Shown piece after piece: positions 55,447-64,000 of a DNA stretch of 64,000 nt (positions are counted from its first letter, which is position 1; every line of letters begins with the position of its first letter). A model generated the notes under the pieces. It did not search any database. It saw only the letters and a program-made list of their open reading frames with translations, and was not told the origin of the DNA. The stretch is from assembly GCA_011390935.1 (NCBI GenBank), contig JAABRL010000004.1:62001-126000 (forward strand), in the 5' to 3' direction. The translations under genes were made by a program, and so were the position numbers. This stretch comes from Gemmatimonas sp. (GTDB taxonomy: Bacteria; Gemmatimonadota; Gemmatimonadetes; Gemmatimonadales; Gemmatimonadaceae).

Positions 55447-56313
55447 ATGACCAGTACACTTCCCGAGTCCACACACATCGGCGCCGTGGCGCTGCAGGTC
55501 GCCGATCTGGCGCGTTCGATCGCGTGGTATCGCGATGTGATCGGTGCGCGCGTGCTCACTCGTGACGGTACCCGAGCCACGCTCGGCGCGCATGATGACG
55601 ATGCGACGCTGCTGGAGTTGCATGAACGCGCGGGCGCCGCGCCCATGCCCACACGTGGCCGGCTGGGGTTGTTTCACGTGGCGTGGCTGCTGCCGGATCG
55701 CGCCGCACTCGGCCGCTTCCTCGTGCACGCACGCACAACAGGCGAGCCGTTGGGCAGCGCCGATCACCTGGTGAGCGAAGCGTTCTACCTGCAGGACCCC
55801 GACGGGCTCGGTGTGGAGGTGTACGCCGACCGGCCGCGCGCCGCGTGGCGCGTGCAGGGACAGGAGGTGGAGATGGCCTCATTGCCAATCGATGCGGCGG
55901 GGCTGCAGGCGGCTTCCGCCAGCGAGCCGTGGACGGGGCTGCCCCCTCGCACGCGCATCGGGCATGTGCACCTGCACGTGGGGGATCTGGGGCGGAGCAC
56001 GACGTTCTATCGTGATGTGCTCGGGCTGGACGTCACGAACGCGCGATACCCCGGGGCGGTGTTCCTGGCGGCCGGGGGGTACCACCATCATCTGGGGACC
56101 AACCTCTGGGCGGGCCCGCATGCCGTGGCGGTGTCCGAGCAGGATGCGCGCCTGATGTGGTGGGAGCTGGTGGTGCCCGATGCGACGACACTGAGCGCGG
56201 TGGCGTTCCGCGCGGACGCGGCCGGCGCGCTGGCGCACCGCGAGTCGTCAGCGCGGCTGGTGCTGGCGGACCCGTGGGGCACTCGTCTGCACGTGGTGGT
56301 CTCGGGCGGCTGA
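55447..56313 (+). CDS. VOC (glyoxalase/dioxygenase-like) family protein, two VOC domains (CatE-like)
   Basis: IGAVALQVADLARSIAWYRDVIG ... LFHVAWLLPDRAALGRFL; IGHVHLHVGDLGRSTTFYRDVLGLD ... YHHHLGTNLWAG. Confidence 0.85.
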   Translation: MTSTLPESTHIGAVALQVADLARSIAWYRDVIGARVLTRDGTRATLGAHDDDATLLELHERAGAAPMPTRGRLGLFHVAWLLPDRAALGRFLVHARTTGEPLGSADHLVSEAFYLQDPDGLGVEVYADRPRAAWRVQGQEVEMASLPIDAAGLQAASASEPWTGLPPRTRIGHVHLHVGDLGRSTTFYRDVLGLDVTNARYPGAVFLAAGGYHHHLGTNLWAGPHAVAVSEQDARLMWWELVVPDATTLSAVAFRADAAGALAHRESSARLVLADPWGTRLHVVVSGG

Positions 56314-56474: not shown

Positions 56475-57506
56475 ATGCCGTTCGGTTCGTTCCTCAAGAA
56501 GCAGTTCATCGACGTCATCCACTGGACCGAGGAAGGCCCCGGTGTCCTGATGGAGCGGTTCCCCATGGCGGACATGGAGATCCAGAACGGCGCCTCGCTC
56601 ACCGTGCGCGAGTCGCAGATGGCGCTCTTCGTGAACGAAGGGAAGGCCGCGGACGCGTTCAACCCCGGGCTGTACAAGCTCACCACGAACACGCTGCCGC
56701 TGCTCACGAACCTCAAGAACTGGGACAAGCTGTTCCAGTCGCCGTTCAAGAGCGACCTGTACTTCTTCTCCACGCGCCTGCAGACGAATCAGCGCTGGGG
56801 CACGCAGCAGCCGATCACGATTCGTGACAAGGAGTTCGGGGCCGTGCGTCTGCGCGGCTTCGGCGTGTACAGCTATCGCCTCACGAACCCGCTCGCGTTC
56901 CACCAGAACGTGGCCGGCACGCAGGCGCAGTACAGCGTGCCCGAACTCGAGCCGCAGCTGCGGAACGCGGTGATCACGTCGTTCACCACGGCGTTCGCCA
57001 ACTCGCAGGTGCCGTTCCTCGACATGGCCGCCAATCAGGGCGAGCTGGCCAAGCTCATCGCCAAGGAGCTCGCGCCGCAGTTCGAGCAGTATGGGCTCGA
57101 GCTTGCGAGCTTCACGGTGGAGAATCTGTCGCTGCCCGACGAGCTGCAGAAGCGTCTCGACGAGCGCATCAGCATGAACATGGTGGGTGATCTGCGGCAG
57201 TACGCGCAGTATCAGGCCGCACAGGCGATCCCCATCGCCGCGGCGAACGAAGGCGGTATGGCCGGCATGGGCGTCGGACTCGGTGCGGGCATGGGCATGG
57301 GCGGCATGATGGCCGATGCGATGCGTGGAGCGATGGCGCCTTCGGCACCGGCAGCTCCGGCTGCGCCTGCGGCTCCCGCGACGCCAACCGACGCGGCCGC
57401 GGGCGCCGCAGCGGTGACCGGGGCGACGAAGTTCTGCATTCACTGCGGCAAGTCGGTGGCGGCCGTGGCGAAGTTCTGCTCGGAATGTGGCGGCGCGCAG
57501 GGTTGA
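56475..57506 (+). CDS. SPFH-domain protein with C-terminal double zinc ribbon
   Basis: Virion-core/SPFH-type N-terminus (FLKKQFIDVIHWTEEGPGVLMERFPMADMEIQNGASLTVRESQMALFVNEGK); C-terminus FCIHCGKSVAAVAKFCSECGG. Confidence 0.85.
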   Translation: MPFGSFLKKQFIDVIHWTEEGPGVLMERFPMADMEIQNGASLTVRESQMALFVNEGKAADAFNPGLYKLTTNTLPLLTNLKNWDKLFQSPFKSDLYFFSTRLQTNQRWGTQQPITIRDKEFGAVRLRGFGVYSYRLTNPLAFHQNVAGTQAQYSVPELEPQLRNAVITSFTTAFANSQVPFLDMAANQGELAKLIAKELAPQFEQYGLELASFTVENLSLPDELQKRLDERISMNMVGDLRQYAQYQAAQAIPIAAANEGGMAGMGVGLGAGMGMGGMMADAMRGAMAPSAPAAPAAPAAPATPTDAAAGAAAVTGATKFCIHCGKSVAAVAKFCSECGGAQG

Positions 57507-57551
57507 GGTGAGCGCGCGCATCGCCACATCGTCGTGAATCACAGGCACGAG

Positions 57552-57971
57552 ATGAACGCGTCAGTCACGGGACGCGAATGGGTGGTGGAGGCGTTCGGCT
57601 GCGATGCCGAGCGCCTCACCAGCGTTGACGCCTTGCAACGCCTCTTCAATGCGGCGGTGCAGGAGCTCGCGTTGCATCCGGTTGGTGCGGCCGTGTGGCA
57701 TCAGTTTCCCACGCCCGGTGGCATCACCGGGATGTGGCTGCTCGCCGAGTCCCACCTCACGGTGCACACGTTTCCCGAGTTTGGCTCGGCGTGCATCAAC
57801 CTGTTCTGCTGCACGCCACGACGCGCGTGGGAATGGCAGACGCGGCTCGCGGAGCTGCTGGGTGCCACGGACGTGCGCGTGCGCAGCGTGCCGCGTGCGT
57901 ACGGGGCCGCAGACACGCCGGCGTCGCCGGAGGACGCGGCCGTCGTCGGCACATCCGAGGTGCTCGCGTGA
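57552..57971 (+). CDS. speD: S-adenosylmethionine decarboxylase proenzyme (SpeD/SpeH-like)
   Basis: LLAESHLTVHTFPEFGSACINLFCC contains the Ser cleavage/pyruvoyl-forming motif ESHLTxHTxPE. Confidence 0.85.
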   Translation: MNASVTGREWVVEAFGCDAERLTSVDALQRLFNAAVQELALHPVGAAVWHQFPTPGGITGMWLLAESHLTVHTFPEFGSACINLFCCTPRRAWEWQTRLAELLGATDVRVRSVPRAYGAADTPASPEDAAVVGTSEVLA

Positions 57972-58612
57972 CCGCACCAGCGGGTCAGCGCCATGCCTGC
58001 CCGAGCTGCGGCGCGTCGATCGTGTTCCTGTGGGCGCAGGCGGTGCAGACCACCTGCGAGTTCTGCAAGTCGGTGCTCGTGCGCACCGGCCTCGACCTCG
58101 AAAAGGTGGGCCAGCAGGCCGACTTCCCGGCCACGGCCTCGCCCGTGCAGATCGGTATGATGGGGCGCTGGGGGCAGCGCACCTTCACCGTGGTGGGGCG
58201 GCTCACCTACGAGTGGGCGCGCGGTCGCTGGAACGAATGGTATCTGCGACTGGGTGACGGCAATGGCGCCTGGCTCAGCGACGCGCAGTTGGAGTACGCG
58301 CTCACCACGGAAGTCGCACCGGGCAAGCCGCTCCCCGATCCGATGTCGCTCTCCGTGGGGGACACGGTCGCCACCGATCGCTATCGCTTCGTGGTCACCA
58401 ACATCACGCTCGCCGAGTACGTGGGCACGGAAGGCGAACTGCCGTTCGCGACCGGTGGTCGCGCGCTCAGCACCTTCGTGGACCTGATCACACAGAATGG
58501 AATCTTCGCCACGCTGGACGGCAGCGAGACGCCGCCGCTGCTCTTCATGGGCGACTACGTGAGCTGGGACGACATGGCGCCGCAGGGCGCCCGCGAGTTC
58601 GAGGGATGGTGA
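57968..58612 (+). CDS. DUF4178 domain protein with N-terminal zinc ribbon
   Basis: CPSCGAS...CEFCKS; VVGRLTYEWARGRWNEWYLRLGDGNGAWLSDAQ; GTGA overlap with speD. Confidence 0.8.
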   Translation: MTAPAGQRHACPSCGASIVFLWAQAVQTTCEFCKSVLVRTGLDLEKVGQQADFPATASPVQIGMMGRWGQRTFTVVGRLTYEWARGRWNEWYLRLGDGNGAWLSDAQLEYALTTEVAPGKPLPDPMSLSVGDTVATDRYRFVVTNITLAEYVGTEGELPFATGGRALSTFVDLITQNGIFATLDGSETPPLLFMGDYVSWDDMAPQGAREFEGW

Positions 58613-58646
58613 CCGGACGCAACGCTCATCTCCCGGAGCGCGGTGC

Positions 58647-59939
58647 ATGAAGCCGGTCACCGCGTTCTCCTGCCCCAACTGCGGGGCATCGATCACGATG
58701 CAGGCGCAAGGCTGGTCGGTCACGGTCGCGTGCGGCACCTGCGGCTCGGTGCTCGATGCCCTGCACCCCACGTTGCGCGTGCTGCAGCGCCATGCGGAGC
58801 GGCTCACGTTCACGCCGAAGATTCCGCTCGGCACGCGCGGCACGATCAACGGTCGCCAATATGTGGTGATCGGCTGTCAGCGGGTCACGATCACGGTGGA
58901 GGGGGTGGACTACTCGTGGACTGAGTACGTGTGCTTCAATCCGTATCACGGCTTCGTGTACCTGTCGGAGTATCAGGGACACTGGAATGTGATCGAGAAG
59001 CTGCGCACGCGCCCCGAGGAGCACGGGGGCACCGCGGTGCTGCACGACGGTCGCACATTCCGGCATTTTCAGAGTGCCAACGCGCGCACGACCTTCGCCC
59101 TTGGTGAGTTTCCCTGGGAGTTGCGTGTCGGCGACGAGGTGCGCGCGCGCGATTTCGTGTCGCCGCCGTATCTGCTCTCGGCCGAAGGCACCGCGCTCGA
59201 GACGACGTGGTCGATGGGGCGCTATACGCCACCGGCGGAGATCGCACGCATGTTCGGCATCAAGGCGCTCGATACGCGTGCAACCGGCGTGTTCGCGAAT
59301 CAGCCCAATCCGCACCTGAGCAGCGCGCGCCGTGTGCGGCGCGTGTGGGGGTGGCTGACGGTGGCGTGGGCGGCGATGCTGGTGGCGGCGCTGCTGCTGA
59401 CCGCCAAGCAGGAGGTGCTCGTGGAGCGGGGGGAGTTTGCGCGCGCCAACGGCGAGGCGAACGCCGTGGTGCTCGGTCCGTTCGAACTCACGGGACGTTC
59501 GTCGAATGTGCGCGTGAATGTGCGCTCCGACGTGTCCAACGACTGGGTGTGGTTCGGGCTCGCGCTCATTGATGACGAGACCGGACAGGCGCGCGACTTC
59601 AGCGCCCAGACCAGCTACTACTATGGTCGCGACAGCGATGGCAACTGGTCGGAAGGGTCGCAGAAGGATGATGTGACGGTCGCCGAGGTGCCCTCTGGTC
59701 GATACCTGTTGCGCGTCGCTCCCGAAGGTGATCCGATCGGGGCGCGCGTGGTGAACTACGAAGTGCGCGTGGTGCGCGATGTGCCGTCGATGCTGCTGTT
59801 CGGCCTCGCGTTCGGCGCGCTGCTGCTGCCGATGGCCTTTGCCTGGTGGCCCACCATCGGCTTCGAAAGCCGTCGCTGGAACGAGAGCGATCACGAGGGC
59901 GTGGTGCTGTCCTTCCCGCCAGAGGAGGCGCGCACATGA
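58647..59939 (+). CDS. DUF4178 domain protein with N-terminal zinc ribbon and C-terminal transmembrane segments
   Basis: CPNCGAS...CGTCGS; YVVIGCQRVTITVEGVDYSWTEYVCFNPYHGFVYLSEYQGHWNVI; TM at WLTVAWAAMLVAALLLT and MLLFGLAFGALLLPMAFAWW. Confidence 0.75.
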   Translation: MKPVTAFSCPNCGASITMQAQGWSVTVACGTCGSVLDALHPTLRVLQRHAERLTFTPKIPLGTRGTINGRQYVVIGCQRVTITVEGVDYSWTEYVCFNPYHGFVYLSEYQGHWNVIEKLRTRPEEHGGTAVLHDGRTFRHFQSANARTTFALGEFPWELRVGDEVRARDFVSPPYLLSAEGTALETTWSMGRYTPPAEIARMFGIKALDTRATGVFANQPNPHLSSARRVRRVWGWLTVAWAAMLVAALLLTAKQEVLVERGEFARANGEANAVVLGPFELTGRSSNVRVNVRSDVSNDWVWFGLALIDDETGQARDFSAQTSYYYGRDSDGNWSEGSQKDDVTVAEVPSGRYLLRVAPEGDPIGARVVNYEVRVVRDVPSMLLFGLAFGALLLPMAFAWWPTIGFESRRWNESDHEGVVLSFPPEEART

Positions 59940-60124
59940 TTCGCACGGTGCTGTATGCGGTGTATGGCGTGGCGGTGCTGGGGCTGCTCGGCACGGCGCA
60001 GTATCGCGGCTGGAGCTTCACGCGCGGCGAATCGGCCGTGGTCGACCCGAAATCGGTGCGCGCCAATCCCGGCGCGTACCGATCCCCGTACTTCATTCCG
60101 GGGCGCACGCTCCGTGGCAAGTAA
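59936..60124 (+). CDS. small single-TM protein of the SPFH/SpeD/DUF4178 cluster
   Basis: MIRTVLYAVYGVAVLGLLGTAQYRGWSFTRGESAVVDPKSVRANPGAYRSPYFIPGRTLRGK; ATGA overlap with the previous gene. Confidence 0.65.
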   Translation: MIRTVLYAVYGVAVLGLLGTAQYRGWSFTRGESAVVDPKSVRANPGAYRSPYFIPGRTLRGK

Positions 60125-60136
60125 AGGAGAATCGCC

Positions 60137-60349
60137 GTGGAATACACGCTGATGCAGAATGTGACGTCGGCCGCCCTCTTTGCCGGCCTGGGCGTGGTGT
60201 TGTTCGTGATCGCGTTCATCATTCTGGATCTGCTCACGCCCGGCAAGCTGTGGCATGAGATCAGCGAGAAGAAGAACACGGCCGCTGCCATTCTGATGGG
60301 TTCGGCGGCGCTCGCGCTCGGCATCATCGTCGCGGCTGCCATTCATTGA
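60137..60349 (+). CDS. DUF350-family small membrane protein
   Basis: ALFAGLGVVLFVIAFIILDLLTPGKLWHEISEKKNTAAAILMGSAALALGIIVAAAI. Confidence 0.75.
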   Translation: MEYTLMQNVTSAALFAGLGVVLFVIAFIILDLLTPGKLWHEISEKKNTAAAILMGSAALALGIIVAAAIH

Positions 60350-61842
60350 ACGCGGCCCTCTTCGCCACCGTCTGTCTCATCGCGGCGTGCGGGCTCATCT
60401 ACGAGCTCGTCGCCGGCGCGCTGGCGTCGTATGTGCTGGGCGACAGCATCACGCAGTTCTCCACCGTGATCGGGACGTACCTGTTCGCGATGGGCATCGG
60501 CAGCTGGCTCTCGCGCTTCATCGTGCGCGGTGTCGTGAGCCGGTTCGTGATGATCGAACTGATTGTGGGTGTCGTGGGCGGCTTTTCGGCACTGCTGCTG
60601 TTTCTCGTGTTCACGTGGACCAGTGCGTTCCGTCCCGTGTTGTACGGCGTGGTGAGTCTGATCGGCATTCTGGTGGGCCTCGAGATTCCGCTCCTCATGC
60701 GCATTCTCAAGGACCGGTTTTCCTTCAAGGATGTGGTCGCGAACGTGCTCACGTTCGACTACGTCGGCGCGCTTGGTGCCTCGCTGCTGTTCCCGCTCTT
60801 TCTCGTGCCGCGGCTGGGGTTGGTGCGCTCGGCGCTGGCCTTCGGCCTGGTGAACGTGCTGGTCGCGCTCTGGAGCACGTATCTGTTCCGCGACGAGCTG
60901 CCGCAACGGCGGGGGCTGCAGTTTGCCTCGCTCTTCGCCGCGCTGCTGCTCGGTGCCGGCCTCTGGAAAGGGCAGACCATCACGACGCTCGCCGAAGAGG
61001 GGCTGTACGCCGATCCGGTGATTCTCGCGCGTGACACGCGCTATCAGCGCATCGTGCTCACCAGCTGGAAGGACGACCTGCGGCTCTATCTCAACGGGCA
61101 CCTGCAGTTCGCGTCGCGCGACGAGTATCGCTACCACGAAGCGCTCGTGCATCCCGGGCTTGCGGCGTTGCCGAAAGCCGCCAAGGTGCTCGTGCTGGGA
61201 GGCGGTGACGGACTGGCCGTGCGCGAGATCCTCAAGCATCCCGGCGTGGAGGACATCACGCTGGTGGATCTCGATGAAGGCATGACCGAGCTGTTCACGT
61301 CACACGCGCGCCTCACGCCGCTCAACGACGGTGCGCTCAGTGACCCACGGGTGCGCGTGATCAACGCCGACGCCTTCGTGTGGCTCGACCAGCACACCGG
61401 CACGTTCGATTTCATCGTGATCGACTTTCCCGATCCGAGCAACTATCACGTGGGCAAGCTGTACACGAGTGCGTTCTATCGACTCGTGCGTCAGCATCTG
61501 GCCAGCGATGGGTTCATTGCCGTGCAGTCCACGTCTCCGCTGTTCGCGCGACAGTCGTTCTGGAGCATCGTGGCCACGCTGCAAGGCGCCGGGTTGCGCA
61601 CGTATCCGTACCACGTGTATGTGCCGAGCTTCGGCGAGTGGGGGTTCGTGATCGCGGGCACCGTGCCGTACCAGCCGCCGCATACGCTGCCTGACGGCCT
61701 GCGCTATCTCACCGTGGCAGGCGTGCCCGCGCTGTTCGATTTTCCCGCCGATATGCAGCCCGTGCCCGCTGAGCCGAACCGCCTGAACAATCAGGTACTC
61801 GTGCGCTACTACGAGCGGGAATGGGCCGCGATCAATCGGTGA
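60346..61842 (+). CDS. membrane-embedded polyamine aminopropyltransferase (spermine/spermidine synthase family)
   Basis: Multi-TM N-terminus (CGLIYELVAGALASYVLGDSITQFSTVIGTYLFAMGIGSWLS) plus YHEALVHPGLAALPKAAKVLVLGGGDGLAVREILKHPGVEDITLVDLDEGM; TTG start overlapping the DUF350 stop. Confidence 0.9.
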   Translation: MNAALFATVCLIAACGLIYELVAGALASYVLGDSITQFSTVIGTYLFAMGIGSWLSRFIVRGVVSRFVMIELIVGVVGGFSALLLFLVFTWTSAFRPVLYGVVSLIGILVGLEIPLLMRILKDRFSFKDVVANVLTFDYVGALGASLLFPLFLVPRLGLVRSALAFGLVNVLVALWSTYLFRDELPQRRGLQFASLFAALLLGAGLWKGQTITTLAEEGLYADPVILARDTRYQRIVLTSWKDDLRLYLNGHLQFASRDEYRYHEALVHPGLAALPKAAKVLVLGGGDGLAVREILKHPGVEDITLVDLDEGMTELFTSHARLTPLNDGALSDPRVRVINADAFVWLDQHTGTFDFIVIDFPDPSNYHVGKLYTSAFYRLVRQHLASDGFIAVQSTSPLFARQSFWSIVATLQGAGLRTYPYHVYVPSFGEWGFVIAGTVPYQPPHTLPDGLRYLTVAGVPALFDFPADMQPVPAEPNRLNNQVLVRYYEREWAAINR

Positions 61843-61885
61843 GCGCGCACGGTGTGACGGTGCGCCGGCGTCGGAGAGGCCCGAG

Positions 61886-63481
61886 GTGACCGGCGGATCG
61901 CGTCGCGAGTTTCTGCGGCAGCTCATGGCCGCTGCTGCGATGGCGATGCCGCTGCGCGGTGCGTCGGCGGTGCCGGGCGCGCCGGCACTGCACGGACTCA
62001 CGCCCAAGGGACGCGTGATCACGGGCGGGTTTGCCGATCCCGACATGGCGGTGGGACACGCGCTTCGCGATGCGACGCTGCCACGAGCCGGCCGTGCACC
62101 GCGCCGGCGAACACGCGTGGCGATCGTGGGGGGCGGCGTGAGTGGCCTCTCGGCTGGTTGGCATCTCGATGCGTTGGGAGAACGCGACTGGTTGCTGCTT
62201 GAACTGTCGGCCGAACCCGGGGGCAACTCGCGCGCTGGGGAAAATGCGATCACCCGCTATCCATGGGGCGCGCACTACCTGCCGCTCCCCGCGCCCGATG
62301 CGGTGCACGTCCGGCAGCTGCTGCGTGAAGTCGGGGTGCTGCATGCGGATGGCTCGTTCGATGAGCGCACGCTCTGTCACACGCCGCAGGAACGCTTATG
62401 GCAGCACGGGCAGTGGCACGAGGGGCTCGAGCCGCTCGACGCGGCACCGGCCTGGGAGCGGGCGGAGTGGGAGCGATTTGACGCGCAGGTGGCCGCGTGG
62501 CGTGAGACCGGTGCCTTTCGCGTGCCGATGGCCGGCGCGCCGTTCGACACGCCCACCGCGCTCAACGCCACGCGTGCGCTGGATGGCATCACGGGGGAGG
62601 CCTGGCTCTCCGCCAACGGGTATCGGTCGCCCACACTGCGCTGGTGGCTGGAGTACGGCACGCGCGATGACTACGGGGCCTCGCTGTCGCAGGTGAGTGC
62701 GTGGGCTGCCGCGCACTACTTCGCGGGGCGGCCGGCTGACGAGGACGGACCGCTCACGTGGCCCGAGGGCAATGCCTTCCTGGTGCAGCATCTCGCGCGG
62801 AAGGCCGGCGATCGTGTGATCACATCGGCACCAACCGTCGCGATCGAGGCCAGCGGCTCGCGCTGGCTCGTGCACACGCCGCGGGCAGTTGTGGAGTGTG
62901 ATGTGGTGATCTGGGCCGCCCCACTGTTTGTGTTGCCGCGCGTGCTGTCCGGCGCGACGCCGCCGGTCACCACGGAATACGCACCGTGGGTGGTCGCGAA
63001 CGTCACGCTCGATCGACGCCCGCGGGAGAGGGGCGCCGTGCTGGCGTGGGACAACGTGATCTATGGCAGCCGCTCCCTTGGCTACGTGTCGGCCACGCAC
63101 CAATCACTCGCGCAACCACGCGACGAAACCGTGTGGACGTGGTATCACGCGGTGGTGGACCGACCGGCGCTCGAGGCACGGCGCTGGCTCGAGCTGCGAC
63201 CGTGGACGGAATGGCGCGACGAGATTCTGGCCGACCTGCATCGCGCGCATCCCGACATCGCCGAGTGTGTGTCGCGCGTGGATGTGTGGCGCTGGGGGCA
63301 CGCCATGGCGCGTCCGGTGCCCGGATTGCTGCGACGCACGCAGGCGCTTTCCGAGTGGCGGCCGGCGCCACGCGTCGTGCTCGCGCACGCGGATCTGAGT
63401 GGCCTGTCGATCTTCGAGGAAGCGCAGTGGCAGGGTGTCCGCGCAGCGACCGATGCGGCACGGCTGCTCGGCGGCGCATGA
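61886..63481 (+). CDS. Tat-type FAD-dependent amine oxidase-like oxidoreductase
   Basis: Twin-Arg SRREFLRQLMAAAAMAMP; Rossmann RVAIVGGGVSGLSAGWHLDALGERDWLLLELSAEPGGNSRAG; C-terminal ADLSGLSIFEEAQWQGVRAA. Confidence 0.85.
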   Translation: MTGGSRREFLRQLMAAAAMAMPLRGASAVPGAPALHGLTPKGRVITGGFADPDMAVGHALRDATLPRAGRAPRRRTRVAIVGGGVSGLSAGWHLDALGERDWLLLELSAEPGGNSRAGENAITRYPWGAHYLPLPAPDAVHVRQLLREVGVLHADGSFDERTLCHTPQERLWQHGQWHEGLEPLDAAPAWERAEWERFDAQVAAWRETGAFRVPMAGAPFDTPTALNATRALDGITGEAWLSANGYRSPTLRWWLEYGTRDDYGASLSQVSAWAAAHYFAGRPADEDGPLTWPEGNAFLVQHLARKAGDRVITSAPTVAIEASGSRWLVHTPRAVVECDVVIWAAPLFVLPRVLSGATPPVTTEYAPWVVANVTLDRRPRERGAVLAWDNVIYGSRSLGYVSATHQSLAQPRDETVWTWYHAVVDRPALEARRWLELRPWTEWRDEILADLHRAHPDIAECVSRVDVWRWGHAMARPVPGLLRRTQALSEWRPAPRVVLAHADLSGLSIFEEAQWQGVRAATDAARLLGGA

Positions 63482-63542: not shown

Positions 63543-64000
63543 TCAGGACGAGTAGTAGGCGGCGTTTTCGTCGATGTAGCCCTTGGTGAGGTCACAGCCG
63601 AACGCCGTCGCGCGCCCGGTACCCATGCCCAGCTCGACCTCGAGCTCCACGAGTTCGTGACTGAGCGCTGCCCGCACGGTGCCATCGTCGAATGGCAGAC
63701 GCAAACCACCACGCACGACGGGAAACCGGTTGATCCACGCGTCCGTGCTCGCCGGATCGATCGTGCAGTCGAAACACTTGCCAACGGCCATCAGCAGTCG
63801 GCCCACGTTCGGATCGGCGCCGTGCACCATCGTCTTCACCAGCGGCGAGTTCACGATGCTCTTGGCCACCACGCGTGCCTCCGCGTTGTTGAGCGCGCCC
63901 CGCACGTGGACCTTGAGCAGATGTTTGGCGCCCTCGCCATCACGCGCGAGGATTTCGGTCATGCGTACGCACCCGGCGAGCAGTGCGGCACGGAACGCGG
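63543..64000 (-). CDS. argJ: glutamate N-acetyltransferase/amino-acid acetyltransferase ArgJ, C-terminal part (continues beyond window)
   Basis: LKVHVRGALNNAEARVVAKSIVNSPLVKTMVHGADPNVGRLLMAVGK ... TAFGCDLTKGYIDENAAYYSS; frame open to window edge. Confidence 0.95.
   Translation of the reverse strand, partial: AFRAALLAGCVRMTEILARDGEGAKHLLKVHVRGALNNAEARVVAKSIVNSPLVKTMVHGADPNVGRLLMAVGKCFDCTIDPASTDAWINRFPVVRGGLRLPFDDGTVRAALSHELVELEVELGMGTGRATAFGCDLTKGYIDENAAYYSS

Follow-up and report, generated by a model that had tools for sequence, protein, structure and literature searches.

The stretch of DNA analysed here, hereafter the window, comprises 64,000 nucleotides of a Gemmatimonas sp. genome (assembly GCA_011390935.1, contig JAABRL010000004.1, positions 62,001 to 126,000 of the forward strand). 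It carries a cluster of eight genes, all on the + strand, that includes genes for S-adenosylmethionine (AdoMet) decarboxylase, SpeD, and for a membrane aminopropyltransferase (TM-APT). When the genes were re-called from the sequence they agreed with an earlier account, the first-pass annotation, which had described eight consecutive genes with three 4-bp overlaps (GTGA at 57968-57971, joining speD with the first of two DUF4178 genes; ATGA at 59936-59939; TTGA at 60346-60349). Families were assigned using Pfam and NCBIfam. The first gene (56475-57506) encodes an SPFH/Band-7 protein of 343 aa with a C-terminal zinc ribbon (Band_7_1, 3.9e-74), which is a putative scaffold, and the second the 145-aa SpeD proenzyme (57534-57971; AdoMet_dc, 6e-25). 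Two proteins combining a zinc ribbon with a DUF4178 domain follow: no. 1 is soluble and has a GTG start (57968-58612; PF13785, 5.2e-15), and no. 2 (58647-59939; PF13785, 7.6e-22) has, C-terminal to DUF4178, two hydrophobic segments around a part that is probably β-rich and extracytoplasmic. The fifth gene (59936-60124) encodes a protein of 62 aa with a single transmembrane (TM) segment, for which no family match was found in Pfam or NCBIfam; its tail, PKSVRANPGAYRSPYFIPGRTLRGK, ends in a lysine (codon AAG at 60119-60121, followed by the stop TAA at 60122-60124), and we propose it as the aminopropyl acceptor of the system. The remaining genes encode a half-length DUF350 membrane protein of 70 aa (60137-60349; PF03994, 3.9e-15), TM-APT itself, in which seven hydrophobic helices precede an aminopropyltransferase domain (498 aa; 60346-61842), and a flavin amine oxidase of 531 aa with a twin-arginine (Tat-type) signal, SRREFL (61886-63481; NAD_binding_8, 6.7e-9).

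Of the 251 Gemmatimonadota genomes searched, 26 have a TM-APT above the cut-off of the family model NF002956, and in 25 of these 26 it was surrounded by the core of the cluster, usually in the order SPFH, SpeD, DUF4178, DUF4178, small TM protein, DUF350, TM-APT, flavin oxidase; the SPFH and first DUF4178 genes were undetected in four class-level relatives, and contig ends cut a few loci. Other AdoMet_dc paralogues confound the counts of SpeD across the phylum, and these counts did not serve as a test of co-occurrence. Many Gemmatimonadota genomes without a TM-APT have weaker AdoMet_dc matches. In a wider scan, the TM-APT alignment was compared with one genome per species, giving at least 584 relatives, of which 80 loci were taken; these came from Gemmatimonadota, Acidobacteriota, Pseudomonadota, Elusimicrobia, Bacteroidota, Verrucomicrobia, Nitrospirae, Vampirovibrio, Leptospiraceae and others. 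Partners were counted in the 78 neighbourhoods with enough flank, and comprised the second type of DUF4178 protein (73), the oxidase (70), DUF350 (69), SpeD (66) and SPFH (61), whose gene opens the unit in most relatives; the small TM protein was detected by its hidden Markov model (HMM) in 59. Recurrence of the core is far beyond chance. The first-pass annotation had taken the eight genes for one unit, had called for a survey of co-occurrence and had named a lack of conserved co-occurrence as the outcome that would count against it; the association proved very strong, within the phylum and, in similar form, in many others.

The same annotation had remarked that the window holds no PspA and that an SPFH protein takes its place, and this extends to the relatives: PspA, YjfJ and YjfI gave no match in 112 loci, so that PspA was rejected as a hidden partner. 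The genome has one PspA, on another contig (C68), with no cluster gene adjoining. The two TM-APT loci that diverge most have a TelA (toxic anion resistance) protein in the SPFH/PspA place (L152:9527-10633 and L062:6274-7485). De novo clustering of the neighbours revealed no further universal gene. Ten loci from several phyla also carry a member of a 375-aa multi-TM protein family, mostly directly after the oxidase (e.g. L132:11478-12647). The last residue is E or D in 84 of 98 DUF4178 proteins of the second type, and mostly Trp in those of the first (46/65). Outside the cluster, a VOC-family gene (55447-56313) and ArgJ (63543-63962) keep their positions only within the genus (L039, L040, L051), which marks the limits of the unit. 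An anti-phage defence system was considered and rejected, as the PADLOC model set gave only an incidental match of mad2 to the spermidine synthase domain (8.6e-19).

The last residue of the small TM protein was lysine in all 75 aligned sequences (the window protein and 74 relatives found by profile). Because the HMM for this protein had been trained on Lys-ended sequences, loci without an HMM match were inspected too. In these, the small hydrophobic open reading frame between the DUF4178 and DUF350/TM-APT genes, listed irrespective of its last residue, had a terminal Lys in every case (14/14). Five betaproteobacterial loci have no small gene (L123, L137, L139, L141 and L143); there the DUF4178 protein is fused to a TM segment and a Gly/Ser tail that ends HK in all five, and this natural fusion implies that the DUF4178 and tail proteins would work as one unit. 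An annotated Novosphingobium protein of 48 aa also ends in Lys (1/1). Outside the HMM, therefore, 20 loci judged without selection on the last residue are all Lys-ended, five of them being DUF4178 fusions. Nine more candidates, among them lipoproteins from Alteromonas and from one divergent genome of Gemmatimonadota, were chosen for their Lys end and count as consistent only; with these nine, all 106 acceptor candidates end in lysine. The residue preceding it is G in 68, H in 37 and V in one.

Both lysine codons are used by the 106 candidates (AAA 56, AAG 50) and all three stop codons occur, so the rule acts on the protein and not on the RNA; a cause at the RNA level, such as an overlap or ribosome-binding site, was rejected on these grounds and on the varied downstream sequence. 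A general bias towards C-terminal Lys was likewise rejected, since the other families of the cluster end in Lys in only 3 of 430 sequences (SPFH 0/73, SpeD 2/81, oxidase 1/82, DUF350 0/89, TM-APT 0/105). As the TM-APTs form 35 groups at 70% identity, the rule does not describe one close clade. A search of the 251 genomes with the small-protein profile matched all 25 cluster genomes and no others, save for one spurious match containing an in-frame stop. When exceptions were sought, seven TM-APT loci lacked an acceptor: three were split clusters with a Lys-ended protein elsewhere in the genome, beside DUF4178, three lay on contigs that start at the gene, and in one (Nitrospinota) the partner contig ends inside DUF4178. 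Every intact copy that could be checked has a Lys-ended membrane protein, which makes this lysine the best candidate for the missing target of the enzyme. The first-pass annotation had given the substrate as unknown and named the small TM protein in passing, and so overlooked the invariant lysine, the most telling signature of the cluster.

The lysine is almost certainly indispensable to function; that it is the aminopropyl acceptor is a reading to which we give about an even chance. It might instead be a binding handle, serving as a pseudosubstrate or sensor in the TM-APT active site or being held in a PDZ-like or SPFH pocket, with TM-APT modifying something else. Invariant termini are often recognition elements, the penultimate residue is also restricted, and in the standalone small protein an upstream tail motif, P-x-S-V/I-R-x-N-P-G-x-Y-R, is conserved. 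However, this motif is gone in many lineages (with tails such as QYHK or GGGHK) and the final Lys is never lost, and a flexible Gly/Ser tail tipped with a free amine offers what an aminopropyltransferase needs; on balance we find a handle unlikely, at roughly one chance in five or a little better. A membrane lipid or another envelope amine (e.g. the head group of phosphatidylethanolamine) could also be the target of TM-APT, the small protein then being a regulatory subunit. The multi-TM enzyme and its envelope-type neighbours are in keeping with this, as is the suggestion in Ravi 2024 (PMC11237479) that other substrates are aminopropylated. Yet no lipid-related gene is conserved in the TM-APT neighbourhoods and the invariant Lys would be left without explanation; a lipid target, which the earlier account had included under an aminopropylated membrane component, found no evidence in this analysis and seems to us distinctly improbable.

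By sequence and by predicted fold, TM-APT is an aminopropyltransferase in its C-terminal part. It matches NF002956 (PRK03612/COG4262 type) over its full length (689.7 bits over residues 2-495; cut-off 472), its C-terminal part matches the aminopropyltransferase 7xif by sequence (2.6e-34), and its AlphaFold2 (AF2) model, with a predicted local distance difference test score of 89, gave a Foldseek match to 1uir (1.4e-17). The Asp of the GGGDG motif (D288), Y263-H264-E265, and D360 and D363 of D-x-P-D-P are invariant in 37 homologues; the segment on the acceptor side is VPSFGEWG. The fungal 7TM N-terminal histidine methyltransferase (NHMT; PMC10349129) shares the architecture of seven TM helices and a spermidine-synthase-like domain, and acts on the terminus of an exported protein. 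It is conceivable from this likeness that TM-APT is an AdoMet-using methyltransferase and that SpeD serves another purpose, but we consider this very improbable indeed: NHMT has lost the acidic residue of GxG(D/E)G that TM-APT keeps, and SpeD accompanies TM-APT in most of the neighbourhoods of sufficient length. NHMT also differs from the scheme proposed here in transferring a methyl group from AdoMet and in acting on the N-terminus. Since the Asp of the glycine motif is kept, TM-APT should use decarboxylated AdoMet.

In the source genome (4.4 Mb, 91.9% complete) TM-APT has the sole Spermine_synth domain, and of two AdoMet_dc matches only the cluster SpeD has catalytic residues. This protein possesses the pyruvoyl Ser, catalytic His and Cys of a class 1 AdoMet decarboxylase and, aligned with T. 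maritima AdoMetDC 1vr7 (3.1e-16), keeps the ESHLTVHT motif and the catalytic Cys. The second AdoMet_dc-family protein, encoded about 3 kb before the window (G000:C56:59011-59331; L005:17008-17331, - strand), is degenerate, with Gly in place of the pyruvoyl Ser and the catalytic Cys gone. Homologues of arginine decarboxylase and arginase are also present (their identity being taken from sequence, not from a family model), so the genome has amines to work with. These facts bear on another view, that TM-APT is a spermidine or aminopropylagmatine synthase anchored in the membrane by accident and that the cluster makes ordinary free polyamine. TM-APT is the only aminopropyltransferase of the genome and adjoins SpeD, an arginine decarboxylase homologue is at hand, and NF002956 is named polyamine aminopropyltransferase. 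Nevertheless, TM-APT scored 133.4 bits against an equivalog cut-off of 249.55 for canonical SpeE (TIGR00417), this view leaves seven partners and the lysine rule unexplained, and bacterial homologues of the membrane enzyme have been shown by experiment to take no part in making spermidine or spermine (PMC12803844, citing Li 2019). We therefore rate it at about one chance in ten. The first-pass annotation had conceded that its proposal would suffer if the genome had no other speD or speE and used these genes only for ordinary spermidine; the first part holds, there being no other SpeE or catalytic SpeD, and the second runs against what is reported for the homologues. Its broader claim, of membrane-associated polyamine chemistry that probably does not produce bulk spermidine, is supported.

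Where an aminopropyl transfer to the lysine would take place depends on the topology of TM-APT. Its seven hydrophobic helices, a number also counted for the 7TM-spermidine synthase in Ravi 2024 (PMC11237479), have K/R in loops 2-3, 4-5 and 6-7; judged from the number of helices and the positive-inside rule, the N-terminus should be inside and the catalytic domain outside, in the periplasm. This is moderate evidence for an outside domain, and we lean slightly towards periplasmic catalysis. Lipoprotein acceptors in relatives would also be periplasmic. The oxidase has a MAO/putrescine-oxidase (monoamine oxidase) fold (Foldseek, 8p84 1.6e-22; spermidine dehydrogenase 7d9j 5.8e-20), PF01593 (Amino_oxidase) is present in 27 of 31 of its homologues although the window protein itself gave no match, and a twin-Arg signal was found in 69 of 72 relatives; from this signal and fold it is probably exported folded.

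We suggest, with about equal weight for and against, that taken as a whole the cluster is best explained as a system that assembles, at the membrane, a polyamine carried on a protein. SpeD would decarboxylate AdoMet, and TM-APT would pass on the aminopropyl group; in place of putrescine, the C-terminal Lys would receive it on its side-chain amine and so mimic a tethered putrescine. The product would be a spermidine-like N6-(3-aminopropyl)lysine tail. In relatives the acceptor tail may be fused to DUF4178 or borne by a lipoprotein. The catalytic domain, the Tat-exported oxidase and the lipoprotein acceptors would all lie on the periplasmic side, where the oxidase might then oxidise or remove the added group; that it acts on the modified lysine is a tentative suggestion, to which we give about one chance in three. 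The SPFH and DUF4178 proteins would scaffold the assembly with DUF350 as membrane partner, and a role in envelope charge or stress seems possible.

Some points weigh against this scheme. An invariant C-terminal Lys could serve recognition or anchoring; the training of the HMM weakens the 74/74 count, and nine of the 106 candidates were selected for their ending. AF2 draws TM5-TM6 as one helix (127-180), which allows six crossings and a cytoplasmic domain. The main hint against a periplasmic site is the net positive charge (+4.6) on the small protein's tail, a mild argument for placing that tail in the cytoplasm. For periplasmic catalysis, decarboxylated AdoMet would have to be exported. No oxidase was found in the loci of Ensifer, Tritonibacter and Alteromonas, and the arginine decarboxylase homologue means that a soluble acceptor, agmatine, may exist.

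In very many bacteria the membrane aminopropyltransferase fusion is accompanied by AdoMet decarboxylase, and the target of its aminopropyl group has long been missing; a short protein with an absolutely conserved final Lys reduces that question to one mass-spectrometry experiment. As far as the literature searched shows, the lysine rule has not been described before, and the acceptor to which it points is the first that is concrete and easy to test. No paper pairing ‘C-terminal lysine’ with ‘aminopropyltransferase’ was found, which is weak evidence of novelty. If the proposal is right, this would be a protein modification akin to hypusine, placed at the C-terminus and at the membrane.

Li et al. 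(2019; Biochem J 476:2579) reportedly left the acceptor of the fusion enzyme unknown. The kind of cluster, with AdoMet decarboxylase, 7TM-spermidine synthase fusion, DUF350 and DUF4178, is already known (Li 2019; Ravi 2024, PMC11237479). As in the clusters of Li 2019, SpeD, an MFS/7TM-spermidine synthase fusion and DUF350 are found together in the window; what differs is that a specific acceptor is proposed here and that the cluster is shown regularly to include SPFH, two DUF4178 proteins and a Tat amine oxidase. The group 2 operons of Ravi 2024 (CesT/Tir-PspA, with the lipoprotein Ctha_1186; PMC11237479) similarly combine TM-APT, DUF350, DUF4178 and an extra membrane or lipoprotein component, whereas the window cluster has SPFH instead of PspA or CesT/Tir and the small TM protein where that operon has its lipoprotein. 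It also has SpeD and an amine oxidase, which PMC11237479 reports for other variants of the glutathionylspermidine-synthetase type. An SPFH/Band-7 protein with a C-terminal zinc ribbon recurs in loci of the B. subtilis ydjFGHL type, for which, unlike the window cluster, no polyamine enzymes are named (PMC11237479). The kinship with PspA-type envelope loci to which the earlier account had pointed is supported.

A parallel is offered by E. coli yjfIJKLMC, with which loci of this type have been grouped (PMC11237479), and by ygiBC. RefSeq names YjfC and YgiC peptide-spermidine ligases, following Pederick 2023 (title cited in PMC12568646). The DUF1190 partners of such ligases end in Gly in seven of the eight cases checked (L145, L147, L153, L155-L158 and L162), six of them in Gly-Gly, which suggests that the C-terminal Gly may be the ligation site. 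The likeness to the window cluster lies in DUF350 (yjfL there), in a partner of the PspA type, and in a polyamine enzyme adjoining a membrane protein or lipoprotein with a Gly/Ser-rich tail and a fixed C-terminus. The E. coli systems differ in pairing ATP-grasp amide ligation with a Gly-Gly end, where the window cluster would pair aminopropyl transfer with a Lys end; no ATP-grasp ligase domain of the glutathionylspermidine synthetase family was found in the eight window proteins. We consider it only a little less than evenly likely that this reveals a bacterial modification new to science, an aminopropylated C-terminal Lys forming a periplasmic, protein-tethered spermidine edited by an exported oxidase, and with it two DUF350-linked routes to polyamine-tipped membrane proteins. 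If so, this suggests that such proteins are common and have been overlooked in envelope stress systems, those of soil bacteria as well as yjf/ygi of E. coli. By analogy, a carboxyl group on Gly would suit an amide ligase just as an amine on Lys would suit an aminopropyltransferase, and this match of protein end to enzyme chemistry in both polyamine systems is the main reason why we read the lysine as an acceptor and not as a mere handle.

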